A stretch of 64,000 bases of DNA, taken from assembly GCA_004293905.1 (NCBI GenBank), contig RDZE01000018.1, positions 1 to 64,000 on the forward strand, read 5' to 3'. This document shows positions 9,573-48,005 of this stretch, in pieces. The stretch comes from Cytophagales bacterium. GTDB taxonomy: Bacteria > Bacteroidota > Bacteroidia > Cytophagales > Microscillaceae. The notes under the pieces are model-generated. The model searched no databases, was not told where the DNA came from, and saw only the letters and a list, made by a program, of their open reading frames with translations. A program made the translations under genes and the position numbers. Numbering within the stretch: position 1 is the first letter of the stretch; every line of letters starts with the position of its first letter.

Positions 9573-9610
9573 ACGCATTGATATAAATAAATAAAAATAA
9601 AGAGCGTTTT
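9573..9610 (+). repeat. 38-bp direct repeat, copy 1
   Basis: Starts ACGCATTGATATAAATAAAT and ends GAGCGTTTT. It is identical over 38 bp to 10919-10956, and each copy leads directly into a TTTG-N19-TATATTTG promoter. Confidence 0.9.
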
Positions 9611-10865: not shown

Positions 10866-10940
10866 ATGGCAACTCCCGAACAATGACAAATAGCAGCACA
10901 ACTGATAGCAGAAAATCTACGCATTGATATAAATAAATAA
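10866..10940 (+). pseudogene. Short interrupted frame upstream of the second promoter
   Basis: ATG at 10866 reads MATPEQ, TGA, then QIAAQLIAENLRIDINK and a TAA. The last seven codons lie inside the 38-bp direct repeat. It looks like the remnant of a small coding sequence cut by the repeat, but it is too short to prove. Confidence 0.25.
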
Positions 10941-10956
10941 AAATAAAGAGCGTTTT
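10919..10956 (+). repeat. 38-bp direct repeat, copy 2
   Basis: Identical to 9573-9610, and 1346 bp downstream of it in the same orientation. Confidence 0.9.
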
Positions 10957-46101: not shown

Positions 46102-46801
46102 TCATAGGAGTACTCAAATGAGGTACTTCATTGAAACTTCGCACAAAAAATTTGTTTCTTGCAAAATGTAATTGTGTAATGCCTGTATTTCGGGTTTGCC
46201 AATTGAGGTCTATGATGGTGTTTTCATCAATTCCTAATACAATACCCATCAACATACAAATAGTGCCGCCCGAACTAAAAACAATAATACTTTCGTTTTG
46301 TTGTGCGTCTTCTTGTAATAGAGCAAGTGCTTGTTGGCAACGTTGTTTGAAAGCGTCAAAGTTTTCAAATTTTGAAGAGGTGATTTCACCTTTTGCCCAG
46401 CGATGTAGTGTTTGGAAAAATAATTTCAGAAAACCCGCTCTTACTTCGGCATCTTTGCCGCCTTTTTGGTCGTAAAGGGCTGCCAATTGAGGGTTTTGAG
46501 CCAATAAATCATTGCGTACTTCATCAAAGATTTCAGTAGCTTGGTGTTCATTGAATAGTTCAGAATAAGCAGTATTATTGGGGAAAGGTATTTGTTGATT
46601 TTGGTATACCTTATTCACTTCTTGGAAAGTTTCATCGTGGCGTACCAATTTACCAACCCAAGTTTTTTGGAAGTGAGGAAATTGTTGGCTTAGAAAAAGC
46701 CCTAACTGCGTGGCTTGCGTTTTGCCTAATTTTGAAAGTTGGTCATAGTTTTGGCTCATAAAAGAAGCCTGCCCATGCCGAATGAGATATATATTTGCCA
46801 T
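46088..46801 (-). CDS. Histidine phosphatase family protein
   Basis: A phosphoglycerate-mutase-like phosphatase. The catalytic RHG motif is IYLIRHGQASF with His9, and the second core motif is IVFSSGGTICMLMG near residue 180, though the usual His there is missing: the motif has Gly-Gly instead of the common THG. Substrate unknown. 237 residues from the Met at 46801. It converges on ribE with a 14-bp overlap. Confidence 0.8.
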   Translation of the reverse strand: MANIYLIRHGQASFMSQNYDQLSKLGKTQATQLGLFLSQQFPHFQKTWVGKLVRHDETFQEVNKVYQNQQIPFPNNTAYSELFNEHQATEIFDEVRNDLLAQNPQLAALYDQKGGKDAEVRAGFLKLFFQTLHRWAKGEITSSKFENFDAFKQRCQQALALLQEDAQQNESIIVFSSGGTICMLMGIVLGIDENTIIDLNWQTRNTGITQLHFARNKFFVRSFNEVPHLSTPMITYV

Positions 46802-46815
46802 AAGGCGCAAATATA

Positions 46816-46941
46816 CTACTTAATTCTCAAATCTTTTTGAATGTTTTGCAGTTCTGCCTTGATGCTTTGCATGAGGCGTAGTATTTCCTTTTCCAATCGC
46901 TCAAAATTTTTCTTTTCGTGTTTGTTATATTGTATAATCAT
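46816..46941 (-). CDS. Small coiled-coil protein (41 residues), cassette A second gene
   Basis: A complete ATG-to-TAG frame: MIIQYNKHEKKNFERLEK, then EILRLMQSIKAELQNIQK, ending DLRIK. It has heptad-spaced hydrophobics and high Lys/Glu content, a likely coiled coil. It lies 30 bp downstream of the 94-residue gene. No database family is known to me. The call rests on the intact frame, coiled-coil periodicity and its parallel with the second gene of cassette B. Confidence 0.5.
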   Translation of the reverse strand: MIIQYNKHEKKNFERLEKEILRLMQSIKAELQNIQKDLRIK

Positions 46942-46971
46942 AAAAAAAAGTGTTATGAAGTGAATAGAAAG

Positions 46972-47256
46972 TTAGATGATTTCGTTTTCTTCGGTGTCAA
47001 GTGCAAGAAACTGTTGAAATATTTTCTTTTCTAAGTTGCGTGCATCTTTTGCCATTCCTTGCTCTTCTTTTTTCTCCAAGTTGCGCGCGTAGGCAATCAA
47101 GGCGTTAGAAATAGTTTGCAATTCATAGACCGAAAGACTCATACGAGTTTGAGGCAATTCACTGCCCATGTGGGTGGGGGCGAATACTTGTGTAGTAGTA
47201 GTATTGGTTTGTAGCCCTTGGATCAAATTGAGGAAAGTATTTGTGAGTGTATTCAT
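46972..47256 (-). CDS. Hypothetical protein (94 residues), cassette A first gene
   Basis: No family recognised. It is a soluble protein with a Thr-rich N-terminus and a helical C-terminal half with charged repeats: NLEKKEEQGMAKDARNLEKK contains the word ARNLEKK twice (residues 57-63 and 71-77). It is preceded by a strong promoter that shares a 21-bp block with the promoter at 48.0 kb. It is followed by the tiny coiled-coil gene. Confidence 0.65.
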   Translation of the reverse strand: MNTLTNTFLNLIQGLQTNTTTTQVFAPTHMGSELPQTRMSLSVYELQTISNALIAYARNLEKKEEQGMAKDARNLEKKIFQQFLALDTEENEII

Positions 47257-47274
47257 CGCTTTGTAATGATTAAA

Positions 47275-47298
47275 TTTTAAACAAAATTATGTTTAAAA
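47275..47298. promoter_or_regulatory. Perfect 9-bp inverted repeat across the -7 box of cassette A
   Basis: TTTTAAACA (47275-47283) and TGTTTAAAA (47290-47298) flank a 6-bp loop. The minus-strand -7 box TAATTTTG (47282-47289) lies at the centre. The half-site AAATTTTAAACAA recurs once more at 47387-47399. Confidence 0.6.
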
Positions 47299-47317
47299 AA
47301 TGAGAATTGCAAATTTT
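47297..47317 (-). repeat. 21-bp promoter block, copy A
   Basis: Identical to 47985-48005. On the minus strand it contains TTTG, placed 20 bases before TAATTTTG, so it forms the -33 region of the cassette A promoter. The sequence following the -33 box, CAATTCTCATTTT, is also conserved. Confidence 0.8.
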
Positions 47318-47402
47318 TTCAGCAAATTTTTCAAAAAAAGTTATAAATTATTGACAATCAATGCTTTGTAAAAAGCTATTTTGCTCAAATTTTAAACAAT
47401 AA

Positions 47403-47431
47403 AAAACTTGACCTCATCAAAGTCAAGTTTT
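47403..47431. terminator. Terminator of cassette B
   Basis: AAAACTTGAC (47403-47412) pairs perfectly with GTCAAGTTTT (47422-47431) around a 9-base loop, flanked by A and T runs. Confidence 0.8.
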
Positions 47432-47469
47432 TCTAAACGTATACACAGGCATTCAATCAAGGATTTTTC

Positions 47470-47640
47470 TCAATAGAGGCGTTGCAAGAGCGTCTTTTTG
47501 AGGCGCGTATTTTCGCGTCTTAGTTTTTCTAATTGCATTTGCAAACGTTTGATAGTTTGTTTTGCTTCTGTTTTTTTCTTGTGTTTGATAGGCTCTATTT
47601 CCCACATAAAACCCATCGTTTGTGATAAATAGTTTTTCAT
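47470..47640 (-). CDS. Small coiled-coil protein (56 residues), cassette B second gene
   Basis: ATG at 47640 overlaps the stop of the upstream gene as ATGA, the usual coupling arrangement. The product begins MKNYLSQTMGFMWEIE and continues with a leucine-zipper-like basic coiled coil (TIKRLQMQLEKLRRENTRLK), ending LQRLY. A different, longer frame covers the same DNA (47453-47680), but its composition is not protein-like and it lacks coupling. The basic zipper could bind nucleic acid or a partner; this is inference. Confidence 0.6.
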   Translation of the reverse strand: MKNYLSQTMGFMWEIEPIKHKKKTEAKQTIKRLQMQLEKLRRENTRLKKTLLQRLY

Positions 47641-47948
47641 AGTTCTTCGGTGTTTTGGAAAAAAGCAATGATAGAGGCAATTTCTTCTAATGAGAGTCTA
47701 AATCTTTGATGACGGCTTTTGAATAATACGCCATTTACTTTGCTATTGAGGCAAATTTGCATTTGTTGGAAATTTTGTTGTGCAAAAACTAATTTACCTA
47801 ACAACTGTTCCAATTGTTGTGCTTCTTCGGCATTGAGCGTTATTTTATTGTAAAAGCGGTATTTCATAGGCATATTTTGTGCCTTACTTTTGAGAGTAAA
47901 AAAACAAAATGAACCTATCAATAAAAGAGAGTAAAATAATGTTTTCAT
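47637..47948 (-). CDS. Small secreted protein (103 residues), cassette B first gene
   Basis: It has a signal peptide MKTLFYSLLLIGSFCFFTLK ending SKAQ, and a mature part of about 80 residues with helices rich in Gln and Leu (NAEEAQQLEQLLGKLVFAQQ), probably periplasmic. No family recognised. It has its own promoter with the shared 21-bp block, and its stop codon overlaps the next start. Confidence 0.7.
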   Translation of the reverse strand: MKTLFYSLLLIGSFCFFTLKSKAQNMPMKYRFYNKITLNAEEAQQLEQLLGKLVFAQQNFQQMQICLNSKVNGVLFKSRHQRFRLSLEEIASIIAFFQNTEEL

Positions 47949-47961
47949 CTGAATTGCTTAA

Positions 47962-47987
47962 TTTATTAGCAAAATAACGCTAATAAA
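47962..47987. promoter_or_regulatory. Perfect 9-bp inverted repeat across the -7 box of cassette B
   Basis: TTTATTAGC (47962-47970) and GCTAATAAA (47979-47987) flank an 8-bp loop. The minus-strand -7-like TTATTTTG (47970-47977) lies in its centre. The arms differ in sequence from those of cassette A although the position is the same. Confidence 0.6.
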
Positions 47988-48005
47988 ATGAGAATTGCAA
48001 ATTTT
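47985..48005 (-). repeat. 21-bp promoter block, copy B
   Basis: Identical to 47297-47317. Its TTTG lies 20 bases before the -7-like box of cassette B. Part of it resembles a Fur half-site (ATGAGAAT), but the other half does not fit. Confidence 0.8.

Follow-up and report, generated by a model that had tools for sequence, protein, structure and literature searches.

The question raised by this locus is whether two small-gene cassettes in tandem, each behind a promoter with an identical 21-bp block and an inverted repeat over its -7 box, are related units, or whether the likeness is confined to their promoters. The locus lies in contig C41 of a draft assembly (3.29 Mb, 90% complete), and the window, that is, the whole stretch of DNA analysed, comprises 64,000 nucleotides. 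Four open reading frames are involved, all on the minus strand, on which cassette B comes first and cassette A lies downstream of it. Cassette B consists of an orphan gene of 103 aa (47637..47948; ORF list, searches and structure prediction) and a gene for a basic, coiled-coil-like protein of 56 aa (47470..47640), which overlaps the former by ATGA. Cassette A consists of a gene of 94 aa (46972..47256; ORF list, codon usage, family profile and predicted structure) and one for a charged, coiled-coil-like protein of 41 aa (46816..46941), the second gene of each cassette being called from the ORF list and codon usage. The places and strand of all four are as first described, and their codon usage, nearer to that of real genes than to that of spurious ORFs, supports each of them (no more than 2% of spurious ORFs score equally well as any of the four). 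Between cassette B and the promoter of cassette A lies a strong hairpin resembling an intrinsic terminator (47401..47433, minus strand), and the cassettes are therefore probably separate transcription units.

The block reads AAAATTTGCAATTCTCATTTT on the minus strand and is identical at 21 of 21 positions upstream of both cassettes, at 47297..47317 in A (with a TTTG -33 box at 47310-47313) and at 47985..48005 in B (TTTG at 47998-48001). The distance from TTTG to the -7 box is 20 bp at both promoters, the box being TAATTTTG in A (47282..47289, minus strand) and TTATTTTG in B (47970..47977, minus strand). In a flavobacterium the -7 consensus, TAnnTTTG, spans -12 to -5 (PMC9723704), and by this yardstick promoter A matches the sigma-A consensus exactly and promoter B departs from it once, in its -7 box. 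Both fit the layout of Bacteroidota sigma-A promoters (TTTG and TAnnTTTG, about 19-21 bp apart), with the same boxes and a 20-bp spacing; unlike typical promoters of this class, however, they share an identity of 21 bp that includes part of the spacer, and carry a dyad over the -7 box.

How far the block extends beyond the locus was examined across the whole assembly, in which a 20-mer of it occurs twice with up to two mismatches allowed (backward control, 0), so that only the two neighbouring promoters have the full block. Its 13-bp core, TTGCAATTCTCAT, is present in three exact copies in the genome, each of them the -33 region of a promoter and equally far from its -7 box. The third copy (C6:99005; locus L050 in G000, 1501-1540) has the -7 box TAGCTTTG, is without a dyad, and stands before a gene that we take from its sequence to be rplI, for ribosomal protein L9. 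Since it also serves this promoter, at the same spacing, the core looks like a rare promoter element that is not private to the two cassettes. For the original idea of paired cassettes, which depended on the block not recurring many times before unrelated genes, the answer is mixed: the block in its full length is not repeated elsewhere in the genome, but the core also serves rplI. Among eight near-match loci inspected in other genomes of the order, none had a correctly spaced -7 box, and a covariance model of block plus dyad recovered just the two known copies (next best, E 5.2).

Each -7 box lies inside a perfect 9-bp inverted repeat. Dyad A, TTTTAAACA-TAATTT-TGTTTAAAA (47275..47298, minus strand), has a loop of 6 and would extend from about -21 to +3; dyad B, TTTATTAGC-GTTATTTT-GCTAATAAA (47962..47987, minus strand), has a loop of 8 and would extend from about -22 to +4, both being proposed operators. 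The original prediction, which was accurate as to the shared block, the 20-bp spacing and the symmetry about each -7 box, held that the arms differ completely; this is not the case, and arose because the arms had been compared from their outer ends instead of in the register of the promoter. Counted from the C of CATTTT as position 0, the arms pair about one common centre at 15.5, positions 4-12 with 19-27 in dyad A and 3-11 with 20-28 in dyad B. Of the eight pairs that the two dyads share (4-27 to 11-20), five are identical (those at 4, 5, 7, 9 and 11), and the other three have changed on both sides (6-25, T-A/A-T; 8-23, A-T/T-A; 10-21, A-T/G-C), that is, they are compensatory double changes by which symmetry is kept between the copies. 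The claim that position and symmetry are conserved while sequence changes is accordingly upheld between these two copies, as is that of a shared promoter whose -7 box is, in each copy, overlaid by a symmetric element.

All statistics given here are post hoc, run after the pattern had been noticed. Dinucleotide shuffling yields an inverted repeat of at least 9 bp in 3.1% of cases for A and 0.44% for B, and repeats in both at one centre in 0 of 20,000. Among 40 canonical promoters picked by pattern from 541 kb of stretches of the same genome, a run of nine pairs at that centre is found only in A and B; the other 38 have at most four consecutive pairs there, and arms of at most 7 at any centre. 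When nine random substitutions were used to convert one copy into the other, nine pairs survived in 0.03-0.3% of trials, a figure that rises to 5% (0.05) with the substitutions fixed to their observed positions, and the evidence for compensation therefore rests mostly on where the changes fell.

The likeness of the pair points to duplication of the promoter. Against the 21/21 identity of the block, the flanks of A and B are identical at about 50% of positions: 27 of 50 match in the 50 bp upstream (p 0.003 vs shuffles), and 16 of 32 in the 32 bp downstream with the -7 box excluded (p 0.004 vs shuffles). This evidence is moderate, because the DNA is AT-rich. Nevertheless, as the block is identical and the flanks align above shuffles, one promoter segment of about 110 bp appears to have been duplicated locally. 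Nothing suggests that the proteins were duplicated together with it. Homology between the 94-aa and 103-aa proteins was considered and rejected (E 5.3 pairwise; 1.4 bits against a quick family profile that contained a few mis-picked frames), and a match between the 41-aa and 56-aa proteins, with E 0.012 over low-complexity coiled coil, was not counted as evidence. The notion of twin or related cassettes is therefore not supported: the two promoters are genuine and locally unusual, though of a general type already known, and the cassettes are not twins.

What the dyads do is a separate matter, for which we tentatively prefer, at a probability of about 0.45, the reading that a duplicated promoter of about 110 bp carries them as operators for a dimeric repressor over the -7 box. 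A single promoter of sigma-A type would have been copied locally, each copy now driving a pair of small genes unrelated to the other pair. The block, which covers the -33 box and some of the spacer, would have been kept unchanged after the duplication and would set promoter strength or bind a second factor. The dyad around the -7 box would have drifted in sequence without losing its perfect symmetry; it would be an operator in the DNA, from about -22 to +4, at which the repressor would block RNA polymerase at the -7 box. If that box spans -12 to -5, transcription would start near 47277 in A and 47965 in B, inside the right arms, which would place the left arms outside their own transcripts. 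We infer the duplication, the repressor binding and the start positions from this arrangement, in which binding a dimeric repressor over about -22 to +4 is the simplest role for the dyad.

Repressor operators that overlap the -10/-7 box are known, as in TetR- or LexA-type sites. Like these, the present dyads are perfect, 24-26 bp long, and cover the melting region and the start; unlike these, they have no adjacent regulator gene, and their arms differ while symmetry is kept. In favour of operators, the dyads overlap the promoters and are more symmetric than chance allows, by the shuffles and the 40 promoters alike. Against operators, three of the eight arm positions differ, and one repressor would need to tolerate both forms; neither dyad was found to have another close copy in the genome; and no regulator gene was identified for them. 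Specifically, dyad A has no second copy in the genome at up to one mismatch and a single site at two mismatches, in a search in which control matches outnumber real ones, and dyad B has none at up to two mismatches. It is improbable, though conceivable, that the two neighbouring operators have been caught diverging in matched two-sided steps, midway through a change of repressor specificity, with all other features required for initiation left as they were, or that one repressor reads alternate bases, in which case the pattern it read would be TTnTnAnC-N8-GnTnAnAA. Should the dyads be operators, the locus would offer a natural pair of promoters differing mainly in operator sequence, and would be useful for learning how repressor specificity diverges, once a promoter has been duplicated, in Bacteroidota, in which operators are poorly described.

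As a separate observation, a pattern derived from dyad A (and hence not independent of it) picked out an element at C47:26324-26347 (G000, locus L113), TTTTGAA-TAATTTTGTG-TTCAAAA, in which a 7-bp inverted repeat encloses a -7-like box, with an ATG a few bases further on.

The main rival to the operator, and one that fits the present sequence data as the operator does, is that the promoters were duplicated and their arms were then made perfect, and changed together, by template-switch mutation during replication, so that the dyad would have no regulatory role. One event of template switching homogenises an imperfect inverted repeat, from which the same sequence pattern is expected; such events are reported to yield multibase compensatory changes and to make perfect stems or repair them (PMC8794818), and quasipalindrome mutation is reported in E. 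coli (PMC7202029). With perfect arms, and compensatory changes of several bases from one related sequence to the other, the dyads resemble hairpins of that kind (PMC8794818), but both copies, unlike those hairpins, lie over a functional promoter box and at the same centre. The promoter of the closest orthologue of the 94-aa gene (L003) is canonical but without a dyad, an absence that speaks for template switching and against the operator, and that also runs counter to the initial expectation of an inverted repeat kept in orthologues. Template switching, however, leaves the placement at one centre over both -7 boxes unexplained, and none of the 38 other promoters has such a dyad. It is rated as the less probable of the two, with something like a one-in-four chance in our judgement.

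Slightly less probable again is the view that the block is a strong -33 element common to several highly expressed genes, and that the dyads are incidental in AT-rich DNA. The three copies of the core, always in the -33 region, agree with it, and since the rplI promoter has the core but no dyad, the block can work without one. But the full block is restricted to two neighbours, and incidental dyads are made less likely by the rarity of same-centre dyads of this length both in shuffles and among the 40 promoters.

A role for the dyad as an RNA hairpin in the transcripts (an attenuator or stability element), which the original prediction had offered beside the operator, is very improbable. Both dyads can fold as single-stranded hairpins (-4.7 and -5.4 kcal/mol, with DNA parameters), and two distant members of the 94-aa family have longer inverted repeats running from the -7 box into the leader; yet, judged by the -7 box, the expected start falls downstream of the left arm, which would thus not be transcribed from its own promoter, so that a role at the level of DNA is likelier, and any read-through into cassette A would first meet the terminator-like hairpin. 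Equally far-fetched is the suggestion that the cassettes are toxin-antitoxin or otherwise autoregulated pairs, since the small, close-set genes, the ATGA overlap in B and the promoter dyad are countered by the lack of a convincing match to any toxin, antitoxin or defence family in Pfam, NCBIfam, PADLOC and PHROGs, by a two-gene order that is not conserved (no second gene, such as the 41-aa coiled-coil partner, stands right downstream of the inspected 94-aa relatives), by the probable export signal of the 103-aa protein, and by the absence of a recognised DNA-binding fold among the four proteins.

The probable signal peptide of the 103-aa protein (...KSKAQ) was read by eye from its sequence, and its structure is predicted at low confidence (pLDDT 43.5). 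In the genomes searched, it has no credible relatives (the matches are weak and mostly contain stops), and neither has the 56-aa protein, including within Microscillaceae.

The 94-aa protein belongs to an unnamed, multi-copy family of small helical hairpins, which is a second, separate lead. Among genomes of its own bacterial family (Microscillaceae, as judged from the best match), 13 of 15 have relatives, at most five copies per genome, whereas the 276 others examined from the order have none; the closest match of the protein is from Microscillaceae bacterium UBA8158. It matches the family profile with E 1.4e-29 (the profile includes the protein itself), shares 53% identity over the core with L003, and shows the family core LxISLxDLKxISTALLxYRRxL...RAExVxxIDKKFYELI together with a variable disordered linker. 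A two-helix hairpin is predicted for it (pLDDT about 87), members of the family sharing this two-helix core behind the variable linker, and it has no significant match in Pfam, NCBIfam, PHROGs or PADLOC. L003 lies in a different neighbourhood, lacks the second gene and is followed by a gene on the opposite strand, and the promoters of distant relatives align weakly with A or B. Loci of the family include L066-L093. Three distant ones (L067, L069 and L077, in G006, G009 and G005) carry inverted repeats of 9-13 bp that flank the -7 box or begin at it; these lie near the -7 box or the start, in positions unlike those of A and B.

A search of viral contigs found no match, and Rfam gave a single sub-threshold match, taken as chance. 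Two further repeats were noted in the window. At 46790-46815 there is another perfect 9-bp inverted repeat, TATATTTGC...GCAAATATA, the minus-strand left arm of which contains a TATATTTG box, and the right arm of which forms the first codons of a histidine phosphatase-like gene; the sequence suggests a leaderless start for that gene. At 9573-9610 and 10919-10956, a sequence of about 38 bp, ACGCATTGATATAAATAAATAAAAATAAAGAGCGTTTT, forms a direct repeat.
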